A stretch of DNA of 64,000 bases from Clostridia bacterium (GTDB lineage: Bacteria > Bacillota > Clostridia > Oscillospirales > Acutalibacteraceae), in contig JAFQJH010000002.1 in NCBI GenBank assembly GCA_017415025.1, forward strand, positions 62,001 to 126,000, given 5' to 3'. A program made the position numbers and the translations under genes. Position 1 is the stretch's first letter. Each line of letters opens with the position of its first letter. The notes beneath the pieces were generated by a model. The model was not told the DNA's origin and ran no database searches. It saw nothing but the letters and a program-made list of their open reading frames with translations. Shown here one piece after another: positions 7,522-27,396 of the stretch.

Positions 7522-8928
7522 TTATTTGTTTTTAACAAGCACTACCGCCTGCTTACCCAACAATTCCCAGCGGTCCTCGAACTTACTCTTATCAAAGGTA
7601 AGCACGCCGTTGTCATAAGGGTCAACGGTCGTTACGGTTGTTGAGGAATAACCCGACAGAATCATAACGTGAGTTCCGCGCGGATATTCGAAATACTTAC
7701 CTGTGCTTTCGATATACCACGCATTCACCTTGGTAGGATTCTGCATTTTATAGGTTGCCCACACGATTGCGGGTGAGCCGTTGCTGATATAGCCGAGAAG
7801 CTCATCAAAGGAGCAACCGCTGATTCTGACCGCCGTGTATCCTCCGCCACGCTCATCAATCGCCTTTTGCAGAGCCTTTGTTACTGCGGGAGAGAATACG
7901 CCGTAGCCCGGAGTTGAGCTTGTGTAGGTGTATCTCGGGTCGCCGACGAACATTTCGTTGATATCGGGGCCATAGGTTTTGCCGTTTTTCTTGTAAAGAT
8001 TCTTGCGCGGAATGATATTCACCATCTGGTCGATGTTTATTGAATAGCCGTAGTATCTGAGAAGCATACAGCACGATGCCGCCTCGCAGCCTGTAGGATA
8101 CTTCGGCAACTGGCTGACATAAGGAATGTTCATTGCCGTAACCGTAACCTTACAGGATACGGTCTTTTTTGTACCGTCCGTCGTAGTTCCTGTTATTGTT
8201 GCCGTGCCGATTTTCCTTCCCTGAATAACTCCGTTTGAATCAACAGTTGCAACGCTTTTATCAGAGGAAGTCCACGTCATAGTTTTATTAAGGACATCAG
8301 CAGGAGCGAAGGTCAGCTTCTGCGCATATTTCGCGCCCTGAGTAAGAGTAATTGACGTCTTGTCAGCCTTAACCGAGCTTATAAGCGGTGCAACGGTAAG
8401 GCTTATTGATTTTGCCAGCTCTTCATTGGCGGCCGATTTTGCCGTCAATGTAACCTTACCTGTTTTCAGGGTATGCACCGTACCGTTTTCATCGACGGTT
8501 GCAATATTTATATCTGATGAAGCCCAAACTATCTCGGCATTATCTGCTATTCTCGGGTTAAAATTAACCGCCTCAAGCTTCAATTTACCGCCGACCGTGA
8601 CGGCTGTGTCGCTTATATTAAGAGAAAAATCGCGAAGATTAATCACCAAACCTACCGATTTCTGAAGCACGAGAAGAGCATCGGTAGAATTGACACTTCC
8701 GTTAAGGTCGAGGTCGCCGCAATATACGTTTTCCTGCGTTTCTTCAATAATACCGACAGACATCTGCAGCATATAAAGCGCATCTGTGGAATTGATACTT
8801 CCGTTACCGTCAACATCACCGAAGAAGGGAGCCGCTGAAGTTGCAATAATATTACCCGTAAATACGGACAGTGCCAACACCGCCGAAAGAATCGCGGCAA
8901 GGATTTTTTTAGAGCTTTGCATTTTCAT
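7522..8928 (-). CDS. Secreted dockerin - Big2 - C39-like cysteine protease
   Basis: A 468-residue secreted modular protein. Order: signal peptide (1-32); an N-terminal dockerin with two calcium-loop repeats, DVDGNGSINSTD (about 38-49) and DLDLNGSVNSTD (about 72-83); two bacterial Ig-like Big2 domains (about 100-180 and 185-265); and a C39-like papain-fold peptidase domain (about 267-468). The likely catalytic triad is Cys281 (PTGCEAAS), His420 (GTHVMILSGY) and Asp436 (VDPYDN). The dockerin predicts docking to a cohesin; two cohesin-like proteins are encoded elsewhere in this window. The peptide substrate is unknown. It has its own promoter at 8961-8989. Confidence 0.88.
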   Translation of the reverse strand: MKMQSSKKILAAILSAVLALSVFTGNIIATSAAPFFGDVDGNGSINSTDALYMLQMSVGIIEETQENVYCGDLDLNGSVNSTDALLVLQKSVGLVINLRDFSLNISDTAVTVGGKLKLEAVNFNPRIADNAEIVWASSDINIATVDENGTVHTLKTGKVTLTAKSAANEELAKSISLTVAPLISSVKADKTSITLTQGAKYAQKLTFAPADVLNKTMTWTSSDKSVATVDSNGVIQGRKIGTATITGTTTDGTKKTVSCKVTVTAMNIPYVSQLPKYPTGCEAASCCMLLRYYGYSINIDQMVNIIPRKNLYKKNGKTYGPDINEMFVGDPRYTYTSSTPGYGVFSPAVTKALQKAIDERGGGYTAVRISGCSFDELLGYISNGSPAIVWATYKMQNPTKVNAWYIESTGKYFEYPRGTHVMILSGYSSTTVTTVDPYDNGVLTFDKSKFEDRWELLGKQAVVLVKNK

Positions 8929-9098: not shown

Positions 9099-9953
9099 AT
9101 GGCTACCTTTTTTAATCAGGCAACGCTCAGCTATAACGGTAACACCGTCAATTCGAATATAGTAACGGGTGAGCTTGTTGAGGTTATCTCCGCAACAAAA
9201 ACCGCCCTTACGGACGATTATACAACGGGTGACATCGTAAGCTACGCAGTAAGCATTATAAATTCGGGTACAACCGATTTCCGCGATCTTGAAATCACAG
9301 ACAACCTCGGTGCTTACACCTTCAACGAAACCACCCTCGTTCCCCTCACCTATGTTGACGGCTCCGTCAGATATTTTATAAACGGCGACCTCACCGCCGC
9401 TCCGACAGTTACTGCAGGTCCTCCGCTGACAATCAGCGGTGTCACGGTTCCTGCAGGCGGAAATGCAATAATCGTTTATTCCGCAAGAGTGAACAGCTTT
9501 GCACCGCTCGGTGAAGGTTCGGCTATCACGAACACCGTCACTGTTACGGGCGGAGGCTTGAGCTCGGATATCACAGCCGAGGCAACCGTTCCCGCTGTTA
9601 CCGAAGCAAGCCTGACAATCACCAAAACACTCAATCCGACAACTGTCACGGATAACGGTGAGCTGACCTATACCTTTATTATACAGAACACAGGCGCTCA
9701 GGCCGTAACAGCTGCAGACGACGCAAGCATCACAGACACCTTCGACCCGATTATTGACATCACAGGCGTGACACTTGACGGTACCGCCTGGACAGAAGGC
9801 ACAAACTACACCTACGACGAGACAACGGGTGTTTTCACAACCTTACCCGGTCAGATAGTTGTACCTGCGGCAACCTACGCACAGGACCCGACCACGGGTA
9901 CGTATATCATCAATCCCGGTACGGTTACACTTACTGTTACGGGAACGGTTTAA
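9099..9953 (+). CDS. DUF11 repeat protein without signal peptide
   Basis: A 284-residue, Thr/Val-rich, all-beta protein. Two DUF11-type modules are visible: LVEVISATKTALTDDYTTGD to about residue 160 (VSYAVSIINSGTTDFRDLEITDN), and LTITKTLNPTTVTDNGELTY onward (YTFIIQNTGAQAVT). DUF11 domains are extracellular Ig-like structural modules in surface proteins, yet this one has no signal peptide, no membrane helix, no sorting motif and no cysteine. A strong AGGAGG precedes the ATG. The lack of export signals plus a sporulation-like promoter suggests a protein deposited on the forespore from the mother cell; that is inference. A terminator follows at 9982. Confidence 0.8.
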   Translation: MATFFNQATLSYNGNTVNSNIVTGELVEVISATKTALTDDYTTGDIVSYAVSIINSGTTDFRDLEITDNLGAYTFNETTLVPLTYVDGSVRYFINGDLTAAPTVTAGPPLTISGVTVPAGGNAIIVYSARVNSFAPLGEGSAITNTVTVTGGGLSSDITAEATVPAVTEASLTITKTLNPTTVTDNGELTYTFIIQNTGAQAVTAADDASITDTFDPIIDITGVTLDGTAWTEGTNYTYDETTGVFTTLPGQIVVPAATYAQDPTTGTYIINPGTVTLTVTGTV

Positions 9954-9981
9954 AGACGACGTTTGCTTCCAAACAAAACTC

Positions 9982-10010
9982 AAAGGCTGTTGCGAAATGC
10001 AACAGCCTTT
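9982..10010. terminator. Bidirectional terminator between DUF11 gene and carB-dapF
   Basis: AAAGGCTGTTGC (9982-9993), loop GAAAT, then GCAACAGCCTTT (9999-10010), with T-rich flanks on both strands. It lies between two convergent genes. Confidence 0.85.
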
Positions 10011-10028
10011 TGATTTGTGATATAAGAA

Positions 10029-13000
10029 TTAATATTCTACAACGCCTTCGTAGACCTTGTGTGTATCACCGTTGACAAGGATTGTTTCATCCGTGTAAGT
10101 AATAACGAGGTCGCCGCCGGGCATCTTGACAGTGATGTCCTCGCCCTTGACGCACATTCCGAGCTCCGTTGCAACAACAACCGTTGCCGCCGCCGAAGCA
10201 CCGCAGCTAAGGCTTTCGCCGTTGACAGCACGCTCGTAGCATCTGAGCTTGATTGTGTTCTTGTCAATAACTCTTGCAACACCTGTGTTGATGTATTCGG
10301 GAAGAAGGTCAGAGTTACGGATCTTGTCACCGAACTCGTTGATATCCATTGAATCAATATCATCTCTGAATACGATACAGTGCGGGTTGCCGACAGATAC
10401 GCAGTTGAGTGTAAGCTTTTCGCCTGCAATCTCTGCTTCGTAGCCGATTGCGTTTTCAGCATCAATGCTCATCGGGATGCTTGCGGGGTCAAAATCGGGC
10501 TTGCCGATATCAACAGTAGCCGAACGAACCTCGCCGTTGAAGGTGTAAAGCTTAACCTTCATTACACCGCAGGATGTCTCGATTGTCATATTTGTCTTGG
10601 GCACGATGCCGTTATCGAAAAGATACTTTGCGGCACAGCGGATGCTGTTGGCAGCCATACGTGTCTGTGTACCGTCGTTGTTGTAAACAACCATCTTTGC
10701 ATCTGCAACGTCAGAGCCTTCAAGAAGAACTACGCCGTCCGCGCCGATACCGAAGTGACGGTCAGTAAAGTTAACCGTGAGTGATTCGGGTGACGGGATA
10801 ATCTTGCAGAAGTTGTTGAAGTAGATGTCATCGTTACCTGTTGCCTGCATCTTTGTGAACTTGAGCTGCATCTTCTTCTCACGAAGGTTGTTGATGTCAA
10901 CAAGCTCTGTGTTTCTCTGTGTGAAGCGGCTTGCGAGAATGTCGCAAAGTGCGTTTGCAGTATCAAGAGAAGTAAGAGTACAGATTGAAAGCTGAACTGC
11001 ACGGCGGTGAACCTTGATAAAGTTCTGGATAGTCGCCTGCTTTGTTGAGCCCGTGTAAACGATGTAGTCAATCTTGCCTGTTTCAAGAACATCAAGAACA
11101 GCACTGCAATCGTTGAAATCACCGATTGTTTCAACCTCGATGCCTGCTGCACGGAGGCCTACACCCGTCTTTGCAGTTGAGTAAATCTTAAGTCCGAGGT
11201 CTGCAAACTTTCTTGCAATACCTACGATTTCGGGCTTGTCCTTATCGTGAACGCTGATGAGAACACCTGCGTTATACTTCTTATCGTGATATGTGCTTTC
11301 AAGACCGACCTTGAAGCCTGCTGAAACAAGTCCCTTGAAGAGTGCCTCATTAAGAGTTCTGCCGATACCGAGAACCTCACCCGTTGACTTCATCTCGGGG
11401 CCAAGCTCGGAGTTGATGTCGCTGAGCTTCTCGAAGGAGAATACGGGAACCTTGATTGCGAAGTACGGCGGAATCTTGTAAAGTCCGACACCGTAGCCAA
11501 GCTCCTTAAGCGGAGTGCCGACCATAACCTTTGTAGCAAGCTCAACCATCGGAACGCCTGTAACCTTACTGATATAAGGAATTGTTCTTGATGCACGCGG
11601 ATTAACCTCGATAACGTGAAGCTCATTACGGTAGATAAGGTACTGAATATTAACGAGACCCTTTGTGCCGAGTGCAAGAGCAAGATTTGTTGAGCATTCA
11701 ACGATTCTGTCAAGCATCTTGTCGGGGATGTTGTACGGCGGATAAACTGCGATTGAGTCACCTGAGTGAACACCTGCACGCTCGATATGCTCCATAACAC
11801 CGGGGATAAGAACATCCTTACCGTCGGAGATAACGTCAACCTCAAGCTCCGTACCCATCATATATTTATCAACAAGCACGGGATTTTCAATCTTCTGTGC
11901 GAGGATGATGTCCATATAGATGCGGACGTCTGTTTCGTTATATGCGATTGTCATATTCTGACCGCCGATAACGTAGGACGGACGAAGAAGAACGGGATAT
12001 TCGAGCTCTTCCGCAGCCTTGAGAGCCTCATCAACGTTCATAACGGTCTGACCCTTGGGTCTTCTGATGTTGAAGGATTCAAGAAGTGCATCGAAACGCT
12101 CTCTGTCCTCTGCGACGTCGATACCCTCAGCAGATGTGCCGAGAATCTTTATTCCGCTTTCGTCAAGGAACTTTGTAAGCTTGATAGCCGTCTGACCGCC
12201 GAAGGCAACAACGACACCAACGGGATTTTCTACCTTGATAACGTTCATAACGTCCTCGTCATTGAGGGGCTCAAAGTAAAGTCTGTCAGCAGTATCAAAG
12301 TCTGTTGAAACTGTTTCGGGGTTGTTGTTGATGATTACAACCTCGTAGCCGAGCTCTTTAAGAGTCCATACGCAGTGAACCGATGAATAGTCAAATTCAA
12401 TACCCTGACCGATACGGATGGGACCCGAGCCGAGAACGATGATTGTCTCCTTCTCGCCGCGCTTGATTTCTCTTGATTCACATTCTGTATCGTAGGTTGA
12501 ATAGAAATACGGTGTTTCAGCCTTGAACTCTGCACCGCAGGTATCAACCATCTTGTAAACTGCATCAAGTGTCTTTTCGGGAAGCTTGCCTGCTAACTTG
12601 AGAATTGTTGCATCCTTGTAGCCGTACTTCTTACCCTTGATGTAGTAATCCTCGTCAAGGTCGCCGCTTGCAAGCATCTTTTCGTAGTCTGCAAGATTCT
12701 TGAGCTTTGCAAGGAACCACTCGTCAATCATTGTGATTTCGTGGATTTTCTCAATGCTTACGCCCTCTTTAAGAGCCTTGAAAACAGTGAAGAGTCTGAT
12801 GTCATCCTGGTCGTGAAGCTTTTCGACAACATCCATATTATCGGGGAATTTATTGTAATTGAGTGTATCAAGTCCGATTTCAGCACCGCGTACAGCCTTC
12901 ATAATAGCCATCTCGAAGGACGGTGCAATTGCCATAACCTCACCCGTTGCCTTCATCTGTGTGCCGAGCTTACGGCTGGTGGAAACGAACTTATCAAACG

Positions 13001-14081
13001 GCCACTTGGGGAACTTGACAACGCAGTAGTCAACCGTCGGCTCAAAGCAAGCGCAGGTCTTGCCTGTGATGTCGTTTCTGATTTCGTCAAGTGTATATCC
13101 GAGAGCAATCTTTGAAGTAACCTTTGCAATCGGGAAGCCTGTTGCCTTTGAAGCAAGAGCTGATGAACGGGAAACTCGGGGATTAACCTCGATAACAGCA
13201 TATTCAAAGCTTTCGGGGTCAAGTGCAAACTGACAGTTACAGCCACCCTCAATGCCGAGCTCTGTGATGATATCAAGTGATGCCGAACGAAGCATCTGAT
13301 ATTCCTTATCTGAAAGTGTCATTGCAGGAGCAACAACGATACTGTCACCGGTATGAACACCGACGGGGTCGATATTTTCCATTGAACAGATTGCGATTGC
13401 GTTGCCTGCGCCGTCACGCATTACCTCAAACTCGATTTCCTTCCAGCCTGCAATGTACTTTTCAACAAGCACCTGAGTGATGGGAGAAAGCATAAGACCG
13501 TTGTATGTGATAACGCGGAGCTCTTTTTCGTTATAAGCAACACCGCCGCCTGCGCCGCCGAGAGTGAAAGCAGGACGGAGAATTACGGGATAGCCGATTT
13601 CCTCTGCGATTTCTGCCGCACGGTCAACAGTTGTTGCGATGTCTGACGGGATACAGGGCTGACCGATTTTAAGCATCGTGTCACGGAACATCTGTCTGTC
13701 CTCTGCCTTGTCGATAGCTTCGGCATTTGTGCCGAGGAGCTTAACGCCCATCTTATCAAGATAACCGTCCTTTGCAAGCTGCATAGCGATTGTAAGACCT
13801 GTCTGTCCGCCGAGACCTGCAAGAATTGAGTCAGGACGCTCTTTTTCGATAATTCTCTTTACTGTTTCAACGGTGAGAGGCTCGAGATAAATCTCGTTTG
13901 CAAGTGCGCTGTCGGTCATAATTGTTGCGGGGTTTGAGTTGACAAGAACAACGTCAAGTCCTGCATCCTTAAGAACACGGCAAGCCTGTGCGCCTGCATA
14001 GTCAAACTCTGCAGCCTGTCCGATAACGATAGGACCGGAACCGATTACAAGTACCTTTTTAATGTCTTTATTAAGTGGCAT
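10029..14081 (-). CDS. carB: Carbamoyl-phosphate synthase large subunit fused to a DapF-like domain
   Basis: One uninterrupted 1350-codon frame. Residues 1-1070 are a full CarB: carboxyphosphate ATP-grasp half (about 1-400), oligomerisation domain (400-550), carbamoyl-phosphate ATP-grasp half (550-935), and allosteric MGS domain (to about 1060). From residue 1071 (MQLKFTKMQATGND) a complete 280-residue diaminopimelate-epimerase fold follows, with GIGADG, GNPHCIVF and ESLSCGASAA. The second catalytic Cys is present (module position 223), but the first is Ala (RMAANSIRC, module position 73, where epimerases have Cys). The CarB part should make carbamoyl phosphate with CarA; the appended domain may be catalytically altered or regulatory. 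CarB start overlaps the carA stop by one base (TGATG). The internal ATG at 10871 follows GAGAAGAAG, so a separate DapF-like product cannot be excluded. Confidence 0.93.
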   Translation of the reverse strand: MPLNKDIKKVLVIGSGPIVIGQAAEFDYAGAQACRVLKDAGLDVVLVNSNPATIMTDSALANEIYLEPLTVETVKRIIEKERPDSILAGLGGQTGLTIAMQLAKDGYLDKMGVKLLGTNAEAIDKAEDRQMFRDTMLKIGQPCIPSDIATTVDRAAEIAEEIGYPVILRPAFTLGGAGGGVAYNEKELRVITYNGLMLSPITQVLVEKYIAGWKEIEFEVMRDGAGNAIAICSMENIDPVGVHTGDSIVVAPAMTLSDKEYQMLRSASLDIITELGIEGGCNCQFALDPESFEYAVIEVNPRVSRSSALASKATGFPIAKVTSKIALGYTLDEIRNDITGKTCACFEPTVDYCVVKFPKWPFDKFVSTSRKLGTQMKATGEVMAIAPSFEMAIMKAVRGAEIGLDTLNYNKFPDNMDVVEKLHDQDDIRLFTVFKALKEGVSIEKIHEITMIDEWFLAKLKNLADYEKMLASGDLDEDYYIKGKKYGYKDATILKLAGKLPEKTLDAVYKMVDTCGAEFKAETPYFYSTYDTECESREIKRGEKETIIVLGSGPIRIGQGIEFDYSSVHCVWTLKELGYEVVIINNNPETVSTDFDTADRLYFEPLNDEDVMNVIKVENPVGVVVAFGGQTAIKLTKFLDESGIKILGTSAEGIDVAEDRERFDALLESFNIRRPKGQTVMNVDEALKAAEELEYPVLLRPSYVIGGQNMTIAYNETDVRIYMDIILAQKIENPVLVDKYMMGTELEVDVISDGKDVLIPGVMEHIERAGVHSGDSIAVYPPYNIPDKMLDRIVECSTNLALALGTKGLVNIQYLIYRNELHVIEVNPRASRTIPYISKVTGVPMVELATKVMVGTPLKELGYGVGLYKIPPYFAIKVPVFSFEKLSDINSELGPEMKSTGEVLGIGRTLNEALFKGLVSAGFKVGLESTYHDKKYNAGVLISVHDKDKPEIVGIARKFADLGLKIYSTAKTGVGLRAAGIEVETIGDFNDCSAVLDVLETGKIDYIVYTGSTKQATIQNFIKVHRRAVQLSICTLTSLDTANALCDILASRFTQRNTELVDINNLREKKMQLKFTKMQATGNDDIYFNNFCKIIPSPESLTVNFTDRHFGIGADGVVLLEGSDVADAKMVVYNNDGTQTRMAANSIRCAAKYLFDNGIVPKTNMTIETSCGVMKVKLYTFNGEVRSATVDIGKPDFDPASIPMSIDAENAIGYEAEIAGEKLTLNCVSVGNPHCIVFRDDIDSMDINEFGDKIRNSDLLPEYINTGVARVIDKNTIKLRCYERAVNGESLSCGASAAATVVVATELGMCVKGEDITVKMPGGDLVITYTDETILVNGDTHKVYEGVVEY

Positions 14082-15145
14082 CAGTCATTACCTCCCATCA
14101 TTGTGATAAATTCGTCGTAAACATAGTGTGTATTCAAGGGGCTGATACAAGCCTCGGGGTGGAACTGTGTTGTGATGAGCTTCTTATCAGCATAGCTCAT
14201 ACCCTCGCAGGTGCCGTCGTTTGCATTGACAAAGCTCTGAACACCGCCGGGAACGCTGTCAGCCTTGACCTCGTAGCCATGATTCTGGCTTGTGATGTAG
14301 GTCTTGCCGTTTTCAAGACTCTTAACGGGCTGATTTGCACCGCGGTGACCGTACTGAAGCTTCACTGTTTCGCCGCCCATTGCAAGAGCTGCAAGCTGAT
14401 GACCGAGGCAGATGCCGAGCATCGGAGCTTTTCCGATAAGCTTTTTGATTTCTTCAACAGCCGCCGTATTCTCCTTCGGGTCTGCAGGACCGTTTGAAAG
14501 AACGATACCGTCTGCGCCGAGTGCGAGAATTTCTTCAGCTGATGTGTTATGAGGAACAACCGTTACGTCACAGCCGCGCTTTGTAAGCTCTGCGATAATG
14601 CTCTTTGTCTTACCGAAGTCAACGAGAGCAACGCTTTTCTTTGCGTTTTCAGCCTTGACCGTATAAGCCTCTTTCGTGCTGAGAGCCTCAACTGCGCCCG
14701 TGATTTTATATGCCTTGATTTCGTCAAAATCAACGTTTGACGGATCATCCGTAATTTTTGCATTCATAACACCGTTATCGCGGATAATGCGTGTGATTTC
14801 GCGTGTATCAACACCGCAGACACCGACGATGCCCTGCTTTTTAAGGAACTCGTCGAGAGTGTACTGACAGCGGAAGTTTGACGGTGCGTCGCACCACTCA
14901 CGGACAACGTAAGCCTTGAGGTGAGACTTGTCGCACTCAAAATCCTCTTCCATAATGCCGTAGTTACCGATAAGCGGGAAGGTGTGCATTACAATCTGAC
15001 CGTAATAAGTCGGGTCAGTGAGAGTCTCAACGTAAGCGCCCATACCTGTTGTGAATACGAACTCGCCGATTACCTCACCCTCTGCACCGAATCTTTCACC
15101 CTCGAAAACGTGACCGTCCTCGAGAACAATGTAAACTTTCTTCAT
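14081..15145 (-). CDS. carA: Carbamoyl-phosphate synthase small subunit
   Basis: A 354-residue glutaminase subunit that supplies ammonia to CarB. N-terminal CarA domain about 1-140; class I glutamine amidotransferase domain about 170-354 with nucleophile Cys246 (GICLGHQ) and the His329/Glu331 pair (QFHPEA). Family blocks FTTGMGAYVETLTDPTYYGQ and GVDTREITRIIRDNG are clear. It follows argF after 13 bases and overlaps carB by one base, so stoichiometric, coupled synthesis is likely. Placement in the arginine operon suggests the carbamoyl phosphate is meant at least partly for arginine. Confidence 0.96.
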   Translation of the reverse strand: MKKVYIVLEDGHVFEGERFGAEGEVIGEFVFTTGMGAYVETLTDPTYYGQIVMHTFPLIGNYGIMEEDFECDKSHLKAYVVREWCDAPSNFRCQYTLDEFLKKQGIVGVCGVDTREITRIIRDNGVMNAKITDDPSNVDFDEIKAYKITGAVEALSTKEAYTVKAENAKKSVALVDFGKTKSIIAELTKRGCDVTVVPHNTSAEEILALGADGIVLSNGPADPKENTAAVEEIKKLIGKAPMLGICLGHQLAALAMGGETVKLQYGHRGANQPVKSLENGKTYITSQNHGYEVKADSVPGGVQSFVNANDGTCEGMSYADKKLITTQFHPEACISPLNTHYVYDEFITMMGGND

Positions 15146-15158
15146 CCGTAAACCTCCC

Positions 15159-16142
15159 TTAAAGTGTTGCTGCCATAACGGCCTTTATTGTGTGCATCCT
15201 GTTTTCTGCTTCTTCGAAAACGATGGATTTTTCACTTTCAAATACTTCGTCGGTAACTTCCATTGCTTCTCTGCCGAACTTTTCGCCCATTTCCTTACCT
15301 ACTGCCGTTTTATGGTCGTGGTAAGCGGGCAGGCAGTGCATAAAGACAACGTTCTCTGCCGCCGCATCCATAAGAGCCTTATTGACCTGATACGGTGCAA
15401 GGTCGTCGATTCTTTCCTGCCATACTTCAATCGGCTCACCCATTGAAACCCATACGTCCGTGTAGATTACGTTCGCATCCTTAACAGCTTCAATCGGGTC
15501 TTCGCAGAAGCGGATAACCGAGCCTGTTTCTTTTGCAATCTCAAGACATTCGTCAATGAGTGCCTGATCGGGGAAATACTTTTTCGGTGCGGCGGCGGTG
15601 AAGTTGAGTCCCATCTTCGCACACCCGACCATAAGTGAATTACCCATATTGTAACGGGCATCGCCCATATAAACGAAATTTATACCTTTAAGGTAACCGA
15701 AATGCTCCTTGATTGTAAGGAAATCGGCTAAAATCTGAGTCGGGTGGAATTCGTTTGTAAGACCGTTCCATACGGGAACCTTTGAATACTTTGCGAGCTC
15801 CTCAACGAGAGCCTGTCCGTAGCCTCTGTATTCAATGCCGTCAAACATTCCTGCAAGAACTCTTGCCGTATCGGCAATGCTTTCCTTCTTACCGATCTGT
15901 GAGCCTTCGGCAAGATAGGTTGAGCCCATACCGAGGTCACTTGCGGCAACCTCAAAGCTGCAACGCGTTCTTGTACTTGTTTTTTCAAAGATAAGAGCAA
16001 TATTCTTGCCCTCATGAATCCTGTGAGGGATACCTGCCTTTTTTTTCGCCTTAAGCTCGGCGGCAAGATCGATGAGATAACCGATTTCTTCGCTTGTAAA
16101 ATCAAGCAATTTGAGGAAATCTCTACCCTTTAAATCTACCAT
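15159..16142 (-). CDS. argF: Ornithine carbamoyltransferase
   Basis: A 327-residue cytoplasmic enzyme that joins ornithine and carbamoyl phosphate to citrulline. The carbamoyl-phosphate loop STRTR (56-60), HPTQ (133-136) and the ornithine-loop motif HCLPAYHD (269-276) are intact. The AGGAGG site lies seven bases before the ATG. Context within argG-argH-argF-carAB supports a biosynthetic rather than catabolic (arcB) role; the two are hard to tell apart by sequence. A terminator-like hairpin sits in the 55-base gap after argH. Confidence 0.94.
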
Positions 16143-16196: not shown

Positions 16197-17570
16197 TCAG
16201 TCGATAAAAGTGCTTACATACTCAATCTGCTTCTCAACAGAGTCAATACCTGTACCGCCTGCAGAGATTCTTTTTGCAACGCAGGTTTCAAGAGATATTT
16301 CCTTGTAGAGATCTTCGCAGAAAAGGTCACTGTATTTATTATAATCCTCAAGTGACATAGTTTCAAGCACTAAATCATTATTTATGCAAAATGCGACAAT
16401 CTGACCAACGATTTTGTATGCGCTTCTGAAAGGCATACCCTTCTTTGTGAGGTAGTCAGCGAGGTCAGTTGCGTTGATAAAGCCCTTCTGTGCGGCTGAA
16501 TACATATTATCAGTAAGCACAGTCATAGTTTCAATCATAGGTGCGAACACACGCAGGCACTGCTTGAGTGTGTCAATGCTGTCAAAGATACATTCCTTAT
16601 CTTCCTGCATATCCTTGTTATAAGCAAGAGGAATACCCTTGAGCACCGTGAGCATCGTGAAAAGATTACCGTAAACACGTCCCGTCTTACCGCGGACAAG
16701 CTCTGCCATATCGGGGTTCTTTTTCTGCGGCATAATGCTTGAGCCCGTAGTGTAGCTGTCGCTGAGCTCAATGAACTTGAACTCCCAGCTTGACCAGAGG
16801 ATAATTTCCTCCGAGAAACGGGAAAGGTGCATCATAATTGTTGAATAAGCGCTCATAAGCTCAACGCAGAAGTCACGGTCGGAAACGCCGTCGATACTAT
16901 TGAGAGTGATGCCGTCAAAGCCGAGCTCTTTTGCAACAAATTCACGGTCGGTGTTATATGTTGTGCCCGAAAGAGCACAGGAGCCGAGCGGAGAATAATT
17001 CATTCTCTTAAGAGCATCCTTAAGTCTGCCGATATCACGTGTAAACATCATAGCATAAGCAAGAAGATGATGAGCGAACGTTATCGGCTGTGCTCTCTGG
17101 AGATGAGTATAGCCCGGTAAAATGGAGGTTTTGTGGGCCTTTGCCTGCACGAGGATTGCCGCGAGAAGCTGTCTTATAAGAACGATAATCTCGTTTGTCT
17201 CATCGCGGAGGAAAAGACGGATATCAACCGCAACCTGATCGTTACGGCTTCTTGCCGTGTGGAGTCTCTTGCCGACATCGCCGATACGCTTTGTAAGCTC
17301 GGACTCAACAAACATATGAATATCCTCTGCATCCATATCAAAAGCAAGGGCACCGCTCTGAAGGTCATCAAGAATAGACTGAAGACCTGCGGTTATCTTA
17401 TCACAGTCATCATCGCTGATAATGCCCTGCAAAGCAAGCATTGCCGCGTGCTTCATTGAGCCTGTGATATCCTGCTTATACATTTTGCAGTCAAAATGAA
17501 TGGAAGAGTTAAAATCGTCGGCAATTTTGTCGAGTGCCTGTTCAAATCTTCCTGCCCACATTTTTTCCAT
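16197..17570 (-). CDS. argH: Argininosuccinate lyase
   Basis: A 457-residue member of the fumarase/aspartase superfamily that splits argininosuccinate to arginine and fumarate. Signature GSSIMPQKKNPD (276-287) is exact; HTARSRND (104-111) and the TH pair (155-156, in PGYTHLQRAQP) are also present. Length is normal for the family. It follows argG after 25 bases. The hairpin downstream may partially insulate it from argF. Confidence 0.96.
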   Translation of the reverse strand: MEKMWAGRFEQALDKIADDFNSSIHFDCKMYKQDITGSMKHAAMLALQGIISDDDCDKITAGLQSILDDLQSGALAFDMDAEDIHMFVESELTKRIGDVGKRLHTARSRNDQVAVDIRLFLRDETNEIIVLIRQLLAAILVQAKAHKTSILPGYTHLQRAQPITFAHHLLAYAMMFTRDIGRLKDALKRMNYSPLGSCALSGTTYNTDREFVAKELGFDGITLNSIDGVSDRDFCVELMSAYSTIMMHLSRFSEEIILWSSWEFKFIELSDSYTTGSSIMPQKKNPDMAELVRGKTGRVYGNLFTMLTVLKGIPLAYNKDMQEDKECIFDSIDTLKQCLRVFAPMIETMTVLTDNMYSAAQKGFINATDLADYLTKKGMPFRSAYKIVGQIVAFCINNDLVLETMSLEDYNKYSDLFCEDLYKEISLETCVAKRISAGGTGIDSVEKQIEYVSTFID

Positions 17571-17595: not shown

Positions 17596-18825
17596 TTATT
17601 TGAGGTTATTCTTTGCCTTCATCTTAGCATAAACCTTGATGGGAAGACCGTAGAGGTTGATAAAGCCTGCTGAATCAGCCTGATTGTAAACGTTATCCTC
17701 GTCAAATGTTGCGATTTCGGGATCGTAAAGTGAGAACGGTGATGTAACGCCTGCGTTAATCATATTGCCCTTGTAGAGCTTGAGCTTAACGTCACCTGTA
17801 ACTGTCTTCTGTGTCTCCTTAACGAATGCAAGGATAGCATCTGTAAGCGGTGTGTACCACTGTGCGTTATATGTAAGCTCAGCAAGCTTCTGTGCAACAA
17901 GTGCCTTGTAGTGTGCTGTTTCCTTATCAAGTGTGATTGTTTCAAGAACCTCGTGAGCCTTGTAGAGGATTGCTCCGCCCGGTGTCTCATAAACGCCGCG
18001 GCATTTCATACCTACAAGTCTGTTCTCAACGATGTCAAGAAGACCGATACCGTTTGCACCGCCGAGCTGATTGAGCTTATCAACGAGTGCAACTGCATCC
18101 ATTTCTACACCGTCAATAGCTGTGGGAACACCCTTTTCGAAGTGGATTGTAACATAAGTCGGAACGTCGGGAGCCATTTCGGGAGAAACGCCCATCTCAA
18201 GGAAGCCTTCCTTGTTGTAAAGCGGCTCGTTTGCGGGATCCTCAAGGTCGAGACCCTCGTGTGAAAGGTGCCAGATGTTCTTATCCTTTGAGTAGTTTGT
18301 CTCACGGCTGATTTTAAGAGGAACATTGTGTGCCTCTGCGTATTCGATTTCTTCCTCACGTGACTTGATGTCCCACTCTCTCCAGGGAGCGATGATGGGC
18401 ATATCGGGTGCGAAAGCCTTGATAGCAAGCTCAAATCTTACCTGGTCGTTACCCTTACCTGTGCAGCCGTGGCAGATAGCGTCTGCGCCCTCTGCGATAG
18501 CGATTTCAGCAATTCTCTTTGCAATGGGAGGACGTGCATAAGCTGTACCGAGGAGATAGTCCTCATACTTTGCACCTGCCTGAATACCGGGGAATACATA
18601 GTCCTCGAGGAATTCCTTTGTAAGATCCTCAATATAAATCTTTGAAGCGCCTGTCTTGATTGCCTTCTCTTCAAGACCCTCAAGCTCGCTTGCCTGACCG
18701 ACGTTACCTGAAACTGCGATAACCTCACAGTTATTATAGTTCTCCTTAAGCCAAGGGATGATGATAGAAGTATCAAGACCGCCTGAGTAAGCAAGAACAA
18801 CCTTCTTGATGTTTTCCTTATTCAT
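17596..18825 (-). CDS. argG: Argininosuccinate synthase
   Basis: About 409 residues, joining citrulline and aspartate with ATP. The PP-motif [10 protein letters not shown] is near the N-terminus, followed by [16 protein letters not shown] and [14 protein letters not shown] place the start at 18825 (MNKENIKKV) because GGAGGT lies six bases before it; an in-frame ATG seven codons upstream (18846) lacks a ribosome site and would put the SD inside the coding region. It is the first gene of argG-H-F-carAB(dapF), driven by the promoter at 18869-18897 with overlapping ARG-box-like repeats. Confidence 0.95.
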
Positions 18826-18861
18826 AATTAAACCTCCAATATGCATTTCTGCTTCACTTTA

Positions 18862-26448: not shown

Positions 26449-26494
26449 ATCCCTCCGCCGCTTACGCGGTCCCCCTCCCTTTAGGCAATGGAGG
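26449..26494 (+). repeat. Fragment of the dispersed GC-rich repeat module
   Basis: ATCCCTCCGCCGC followed by CCTCCCTTTAGGCAATGGAGG resembles the CCTCC...TTTAGGCAAGGAGGG part of the repeat at 29922-30158. It forms the 5' leader of the phosphatase gene, which argues against upstream start codons there. Confidence 0.55.
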
Positions 26495-26523
26495 CAGATT
26501 TTTCCTTTTGGAGTGAATGCATT

Positions 26524-27396
26524 ATGCTTAATATAACATTTGTCTGCACGGGCAATACCTGCCGAAGTGCAATGGCAGAAGGACTTTTTAAAAAGATACT
26601 TTCCGAGCGCGGTATAACCGACATTTCCTGCCGAAGCTGCGGTCTTGCAGCCTACACGGGCGACAGCGCATCACCGCAGGCTGTTGAGGTCTGTGCCGAG
26701 CGCGGCATTGACCTTTCAACCCACCGTGCAACTATCTTTAACGAATATATTTTTGATGAAACCGATATTATGGTATGTATGACCGAGAGTCACAAGGGCG
26801 CGGTTATGCGCGTGAAGCCGACCTTCAGGGTAATCGTACCCGAGGGCGGTGTTCCCGACCCCTACGGCGGTACGGTAGAAATCTACCGCGACTGTGCGGA
26901 TAAGCTCGAGGCTTTTCTTGAAAAATTTATTGACAGCATTACAATGAATATTGAGCCAATGCAGGAAAAGCACATCAGGGAAATTGCGGAGCTTGAAAGG
27001 GTGTCTTTTTCCGTACCGTGGAGCGAGGACGGACTTCGAAGTGAGCTTACCAACGAAACGGCGCATTTTCTTGTGGCTTCGGCAGAAAGCAAGGTGCTCG
27101 GCTATATCGGAGTTCATGAAATCTGCGGTGAAGCATACATAACAAACGTTGCCGTTTTTCCCGAATACCGCCGTCTCGGTATCGGCGAAACGCTGATTGA
27201 TGCCGCGACTCACGGCGCAAAGCAGAGAAATTGCGATTTTATTTCGCTCGAAGTGAGAATCAGTAACGTTCCGGCTATTGAACTTTACAAAAAAGAGGGT
27301 TATAATATCGTCGGTCAGCGGAAGAATTTCTATTCCAATCCCACCGAGGATGCTTATATAATGACCAGATATTTAAAGGATGTTGAGACTCAATGA
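26524..27396 (+). CDS. YwlE-like protein phosphatase fused to RimI acetyltransferase
   Basis: 290 residues from MLNITFVCTG; GGAG precedes this ATG, and upstream codons lie in repeat DNA. Residues 1-140 are a low-molecular-weight phosphatase: P-loop CTGNTCRS (Cys8, Arg14) and general acid in DPYGG (Asp112). Thr at the fifth P-loop position (Thr12) is the mark of YwlE-type protein-arginine phosphatases; tyrosine phosphatases usually have a bulkier Ile/Leu. Residues 141-290 are a GNAT domain of RimI type: ITNVAVFPEYRRLGIG (acetyl-CoA loop) and ISLEVRISNVPAIELYKKEGY, which N-acetylates ribosomal protein bS18. No ribosome site precedes internal Met141, so the fusion looks real. Its stop overlaps the tsaD start by four bases. 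Confidence 0.9.
   Translation: MLNITFVCTGNTCRSAMAEGLFKKILSERGITDISCRSCGLAAYTGDSASPQAVEVCAERGIDLSTHRATIFNEYIFDETDIMVCMTESHKGAVMRVKPTFRVIVPEGGVPDPYGGTVEIYRDCADKLEAFLEKFIDSITMNIEPMQEKHIREIAELERVSFSVPWSEDGLRSELTNETAHFLVASAESKVLGYIGVHEICGEAYITNVAVFPEYRRLGIGETLIDAATHGAKQRNCDFISLEVRISNVPAIELYKKEGYNIVGQRKNFYSNPTEDAYIMTRYLKDVETQ

Follow-up and report, generated by a model that had tools for sequence, protein, structure and literature searches.

Background and comparison with described systems

Carbamoyl-phosphate synthase (CPS) is the textbook control point between arginine and pyrimidines, and in yeast URA2 it is fused with a defective dihydroorotase-like domain. The proline racemase group is akin to the fold of the diaminopimelate (DAP) epimerase DapF, and glutamate racemases have another fold. 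In the stretch of DNA analysed here (the window, 64,000 nucleotides of a Clostridia bacterium, G000:C1:62001-126000; genome G000 has 2.09 Mb in 28 contigs and is 83.6% complete), one gene encodes the large subunit of CPS, CarB, followed by a DapF-type domain. Judged from the sequences, the former epimerase was on balance probably retained without catalytic function, as a ligand-binding or structural part of a CarB belonging to an arginine operon.

Like yeast URA2, the window protein carries CPS in a multidomain chain with a domain that likely lacks its original activity, but the partner enzyme and the organisms are different. The CarB part resembled Escherichia coli CarB (PDB 1bxr) in a full-length match over residues 1-1046 (1e-302), an upstream carA and the equivalent of Thr1042, and differed from it by an extra C-terminal domain of 280 residues, an Asp at the Lys993 equivalent and YTG at motif 1015-1020. 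The extra domain shared with DapF (EC 5.1.1.7; TIGR00652; PDB 2otn and 5h2g) the family, the length, most substrate contacts and the second catalytic cysteine, but it stood behind CarB and had alanine at the first catalytic cysteine and at the Thr223 equivalent. A weak Pro_racemase match (Pfam) was also found in the window protein. The domain architecture is built from known families, with what appears to be a repeated change from enzyme to non-enzyme. The earlier note on this DNA knew of no characterised example of such a fusion, and a literature search among open-access papers, judged by their titles, likewise gave no description of it.

The fusion gene and its active site

The fusion was encoded by an open reading frame (ORF) of 1350 codons on the minus strand, with an ATG start and zero internal stops, and the same frame was present in the whole genome (G000:C1, open frame 1351). 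The CarB part reached 1399 bits with TIGR01369 (CPSaseII_lrg) against a cut-off of 1027, and the DapF-type part 213.5 bits with TIGR00652 against a cut-off of 114.65 (NCBIfam); Pfam concurred for both. These results confirmed the single stop-free frame claimed in the earlier note, and the domain coordinates bore out that the extra domain directly follows the allosteric MGS domain. In G000 the fusion was the sole CarB above cut-off and the sole DapF-family match. The features of the gene were as follows.

10029..14081, minus strand: carB-dapF fusion gene, 1350 residues (ORF, Pfam, NCBIfam)
10941..14072, minus strand: CarB part, residues 4-1047, with two ATP-grasp halves, oligomerisation domain and MGS domain 951-1037 (TIGR01369, Pfam, PDB 1bxr 1e-302)
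11118..11120, minus strand: Asp988, aligned with Lys993 of E. coli CarB, which binds uridine monophosphate (UMP) (alignment; available part of PMC6245113)
11037..11060, minus strand: MGS motif VYTGSTKQ, residues 1008-1015, replacing STSxKGR of the other fused group
10860..10955, minus strand: 32-residue linker 1043-1074, between LTSLDTA and FTKM
10038..10862, minus strand: DapF-type domain, residues 1074-1348 (TIGR00652 213.5 bits; PDB DapF 2otn 1.1e-50)
10653..10655, minus strand: Ala1143 at the first catalytic cysteine site (Cys73 in Haemophilus influenzae, Cys83 in Corynebacterium glutamicum)
10203..10205, minus strand: Cys1293, second catalytic cysteine (Cys217/Cys221), retained
10197..10199, minus strand: Ala1295 at the DapF Thr223/Ser219 site

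The equivalents of Cys73, Gly74 and Thr/Ser219 were Ala1143, Ala1144 and Ala1295, and N1083, N1134, N1145, N1232, N1265, E1283, R1284 and C1293 were retained. Among the substrate contacts N15, N74, N85, N159, N194, E212, R213 and T223 (C. glutamicum numbers), seven were kept and T223 was Ala1295. An active DAP epimerase has two catalytic cysteines, and the window domain had Ala1143 and Cys1293 at these sites. For DapF of C. glutamicum, the available sections of PMC5296763 describe that C83A and T223A are each nearly inactive, that ligand binding closes the two lobes in a large domain closure, and that DapFs dimerise. Since both Cys73 and the Thr223 equivalent are absent, the window domain is likely not a working epimerase. 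The earlier note had called the domain complete, which holds for the fold family; the active site, with Ala1143 at the position of the first catalytic cysteine, is incomplete. The note's suggestion of a moonlighting enzyme became the less likely branch for this copy.

On the CarB side, the roles of Lys993, Thr977, Ser948 and Thr1042 in the E. coli enzyme were taken from the available part of PMC6245113. The residue of the UMP-inhibited type was lacking in the window CarB (Asp988), the STSxKGR motif was gone from its MGS domain, and the ornithine residue Thr1042 had a retained equivalent, as in all 142 distinct fusions collected. An effect of the appended domain on UMP/ornithine control, as proposed earlier, accords with these data; UMP control, however, has probably changed already, given Asp988 and the loss of STSxKGR.

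Two kinds of fusion

The 142 distinct fusions fell into 49 of YTG type, none with Cys73, 66 of STS type with Cys73 and 27 of STS type without it. Both catalytic cysteines were thus present in 66/142 and Cys73 was lost in 76/142, the window copy among these; the loss concerned 49/49 YTG-type versus 27/93 other fusions. Cys73 was kept in 32/32 stand-alone DapFs, almost all of them encoded in genomes with a fusion as well. The Lys993 equivalent was K in 65/66 Cys73-intact fusions versus 15/49 of YTG type, and the R1020 equivalent was R in 66/66 versus 2/49. The same division appeared in a tree of 67 fused CarB parts, with 28 YTG rows all lacking Cys73 and 39 STS rows (33 with and six without it). 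From the sequences, the fusion and its two states can be regarded as solid.

Cys73 was lost many times: parsimony on a FastTree of 136 rows gave 17 changes (22 losses if no regain), and Cys217 was lost in only 4/136 rows, all already without Cys73. Cys217 was retained in 72 of the 76 Cys73-less fusions, and so were most ligand-contacting residues. Within the 49 YTG-type domains, N85 and N194 were kept in 49/49, and N74, N159, E212, R213 and C221 in 48 each; T223 was T or S in 47, and N15 was N in 38 and D in 11. Position 73 of the Cys73-less domains was A, G or S, with F and Y once each. Hydroxyproline dehydratase-type members of the proline racemase family also lack one of two catalytic cysteines, but there, in the accessible text of PMC8142540, Cys was changed to Thr and a new reaction arose.

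Spread and origin

In the same-family sample, CarB and DapF stood in one frame in at least 67/200 genomes (60 full length, seven cut by contig ends), a minimum count, as the weakest matches were unlisted, with three unsure loci left out. A stop-free match across the junction was found in 134/345 genomes of the order sample (a row count checked for repeats, with some frames cut by contigs and that of G341 only 378 residues long) and in 16/348 genomes of the phylum sample. The search for CarB proteins with a C-terminal DapF domain, which the earlier note had proposed, thus found the fusion widespread in clostridial order samples. The best 80 named matches listed were fused without exception (80/80) and came mainly from Ruminococcus, Oscillospiraceae and Clostridia metagenome assemblies, with Ruminococcus sp. 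FC2018 as the one record without a metagenome mark. The nearest named record was L197 (Clostridia bacterium RGIG150, dairy cattle cecum), whose DapF part was 95% identical to the window copy. As for the separate genes that had been considered possible in relatives, G063 and G177 of the same genus in the sample, and L197, all had the fused form. An assembly or frameshift artefact was ruled out by the 142 distinct fused proteins.

Five fusions occurred in assemblies named Treponema, Spirochaetaceae or Chitinispirillia (L178, L186, L187, L188 and L191), 5/5 without Cys73; gene transfer or mis-binned contigs may account for them.

A free search on a CarB tree (60 fused and 21 unfused) needed two state changes, and a single fused clade was not rejected (approximately unbiased test, AU p 0.73). 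Loci with a separate dapF next to carAB were picked on the basis of their coordinates. The gene lay directly behind an unfused carB in G032:C12, G001:C8 and G123, and upstream of carA in G051, G103, G127, G170 and G036; such an adjoining dapF is a plausible source of the fusion. The genes behind unfused carB were at 4282-5085 in L119, 4546-5349 in L123 and 7494-8282 in L228, and G032 and G001 also hold a fused copy. In G211, a match with two stops had hinted at a remnant of CarB upstream of dapF, but none was seen on reading three frames.

Linker, start signals and selection

The distance from the CarB motif LTSxDTA to the DapF motif FTKM was exactly 32 residues in 139/141 scored fusions, the two exceptions having 52; all 49 YTG-type proteins had the 32-residue linker. 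A TELVDI-like motif was present in 127/141 linkers. A start codon with a Shine-Dalgarno-like 5-mer occurred near the junction in 16/141 fusions, whereas five control windows gave 2, 18, 5, 4 and 14 of 141; among separate DapF frames it occurred in 26 of 33, up to three of these 33 being contig-cut loci of unsure state. An internal start giving a separate DapF was thus unsupported, the junction signals being no commoner than in the controls, and there was no sign of the separate DapF-like protein initiated at 10871 that the earlier note had considered.

The ratio of nonsynonymous to synonymous substitution (dN/dS) between the window and L197 was 0.055 for the DapF part (dN 0.029, dS 0.53) and 0.019 for the CarB part (dN 0.007, dS 0.37). 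Against G177, dN was 0.28 and dS 1.7 for the DapF part. Among the YTG-type pairs, the DapF ratio was 0.04-0.24 in the 10 of 16 that gave a finite estimate, and in most pairs the DapF part evolved faster than CarB. These values indicate that the DapF part is under constraint, less than CarB.

Gene neighbourhood and supply of meso-DAP

The fusion gene closed a tight minus-strand run, argG-argH-argF-carA-carB-dapF, so that the partner CarA was encoded next to the fused CarB.

14081..15145, minus strand: carA, 354 residues; its stop shares one base with the carB start (TGATG)
15159..16142, minus strand: argF, ornithine carbamoyltransferase (TIGR00658, 418 bits)
16197..17570, minus strand: argH, argininosuccinate lyase (TIGR00838, 634 bits)
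17596..18846, minus strand: argG, argininosuccinate synthase (NF001770, 571 bits)

In the collection, dapL stood beside 45/66 Cys73-intact versus 0/76 Cys73-less fusions, and argF beside 1/66 (G167, on the opposite strand) versus 36/76, with neither gene in 20/66 of the intact ones; these counts are not independent since the loci are related, and absences are soft because the flanks vary in length and many are cut. Two separate branches had joined argF, both without Cys73, namely the YTG type with L211 and L215, and L182/L190. A neighbour of the STS-type fusion L051 was LL-diaminopimelate aminotransferase (TIGR03542, 487 bits, cut-off 365), and CTP synthase, an ANTAR-domain protein and a glutamine-synthetase-like protein were found around this locus. 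The earlier note regarded the two pathways as not normally coupled. Elsewhere in the group they are coupled, as the dapL product is the substrate of DapF and dapL often lies beside cysteine-complete fusions, and in other genomes separate dapF genes adjoin carAB. Because both cysteines are kept and dapL is often adjacent, the cysteine-complete fusion domain is probably a working epimerase.

In G000, Ddh and lysA were encoded side by side on G000:C4, and neither a DapL match at E 1e-80 or better nor a second DapF was found. With Ddh, meso-DAP can be made without DapF. Among the 34 genomes with a Cys73-less fusion in the 67-row set, 32 had a Ddh match or another DapF, weak half-profile matches and a fragment in G138 included.

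Proposed explanation and its rivals

CarB and DapF would have been fused early in the clostridial order, possibly once, into a single chain with a linker fixed at 32 residues. This first form was probably bifunctional, acting as carbamoyl-phosphate synthase and diaminopimelate epimerase, and this state seemingly persists in relatives with both cysteines and a dapL neighbour. In the branch of the window, CarB would have become an arginine-operon gene, the nucleotide-site motif of the MGS domain would have changed and Cys73 been lost, so that DAP epimerisation by the two-cysteine route would no longer be possible; meso-DAP could then come from Ddh. The domain would have been kept for its service to CarB. 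Most likely its old pocket would bind an L-amino acid, DAP-like or other, and its open/closed movement would be passed via the short linker to the MGS domain; alternatively it would serve as a scaffold. Of these, regulation of CarB through ligand binding is considered the more likely, the scaffold being its main rival. We tentatively suggest that the arginine-operon DapF domain may be a sensor, which would bind meso-DAP or an amino acid of the arginine pathway without turnover and control how fast carbamoyl phosphate is made; the loss of Cys73 from an otherwise preserved pocket, many times over, would then be a repeatable route from enzyme to regulator.

Several observations weigh against this explanation. 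In the window copy the losses go beyond Cys73, since the equivalents of G84 and T223 are also Ala, and its pocket may therefore no longer bind DAP. The near relative G133 (L098) retained a full-length domain after losing N74, N159, E212, R213 and C221, and keeping a domain with a ruined pocket favours a scaffold. Within the genus of the window, G177 was of the Cys73-less type and G063 (L090) of the cysteine-complete, dapL-linked STS type despite having Ddh, so species identity does not by itself set the type; gene exchange or old paralogues may explain the type of G063. In the window pair, evolution of the DapF part was roughly threefold faster than that of CarB, and neither argF nor dapL was present in the available stretch of 40/76 Cys73-less fusions. 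With G000 83.6% complete, its missing dapF and dapL are not proof of absence. Moreover, Cys73 loss was not significantly associated with another meso-DAP source after kinship correction (seven independent pairs), so the explanation rests on operon context and residue patterns. Lastly, G047 (L053) and G166 (L071), 99% and 97% complete, had DapL, their LysA-like matches lay under the cut-off, and neither Ddh nor a two-cysteine DapF was found in these searches; the Cys73-less domain could still do something enzymatic there, or these bacteria may have LL-DAP in the wall or an unrecognised epimerase.

A pure scaffold, in which the epimerase fold was kept since folding, stability or oligomerisation of CarB came to need it and no ligand is sensed, is less likely than the sensor but deserves weight. 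It agrees with the domain of G133, with the three residues missing from the catalytic sub-site of the window copy, with a linker of fixed length, which fits a rigid interface, and with the dimerisation of DapFs (PMC5296763, available sections). A scaffold, however, would have no obvious use for N74, N85, N159, N194, E212, R213 and C221, kept in 48-49 of the 49 YTG-type domains, and the loss targets Cys73 and seldom Cys217. G133 (L098) is a natural test case for the pure scaffold. It is rather improbable that the domain became a new one-base enzyme, with Cys217 alone driving another reaction, such as elimination, on a DAP-like amino acid. The retention of Cys217 in 72/76 Cys73-less domains and the gene sets of G047 and G166 would suit it, and precedents are given in the available text of PMC8142540, where a hydroxyproline epimerase with Thr for Cys acts as a dehydratase and glutamate racemases with Ser for Cys eliminate chloroglutamate. 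But position 73, being A, G, S, F or Y, offers no single new catalytic group, and no companion gene was recognised at argF-type loci, though a comparison limited to carA, argF/G/H, glnA, ANTAR, pyrG and dapL could miss one.

There is very little to be said for a neutral remnant, useless once Ddh or another DapF took over and now decaying, a reading already disfavoured. The alternative meso-DAP sources in 32/34 genomes and the faster evolution of the DapF part are what it would predict, but the low dN/dS of the window pair and of 10/16 YTG-type pairs, the linker of 32 residues in 49/49 YTG-type proteins and the retained pocket residues speak against decay. Equally slight is the chance that DAP is still epimerised by the window domain, with water or a different residue standing in for Cys73. 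Its TIGR00652 score lies above cut-off, and an epimerase seems to be required in G047 and G166; against this, the changes C83A and T223A, each of which almost inactivates C. glutamicum DapF in the portion of PMC5296763 available, are both present here, and G000 has Ddh and no DapL match.

If the regulator reading holds, CPS in a widespread bacterial group, mostly of gut and rumen, may have gained a third input from the DAP/lysine route. The two domain states, cysteine-complete and often by dapL or Cys73-less and often by argF, would form a natural series from enzyme to regulator. The Cys73-less domain still passes the DapF equivalog cut-off, so that an epimerase could be wrongly assigned to such genomes in annotation and metabolic models.

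Other features of the window

Downstream of the fusion gene, a scan of 9900-10100 for terminator-like hairpins scored 2, versus 0.1 expected from shuffles.

9982..10010, scored on both strands: terminator-like hairpin separating the fusion gene from the convergent gene 9099-9953 (consensus match only)

The convergent gene (9099-9953, plus strand) encoded a DUF11-like protein and also lay behind the fusion in L197. So did a gene similar to that at 7522-8928 (minus strand), which encoded one protein with Dockerin, Big_2 and C39-like peptidase domains and suggests a cellulosome-like system. A second in-frame fusion was found at 26488-27396 (plus strand), joining a low-molecular-weight phosphotyrosine phosphatase (residues 16-147) to a RimI acetyltransferase (163-292), and it was followed by tsaD at 27393.

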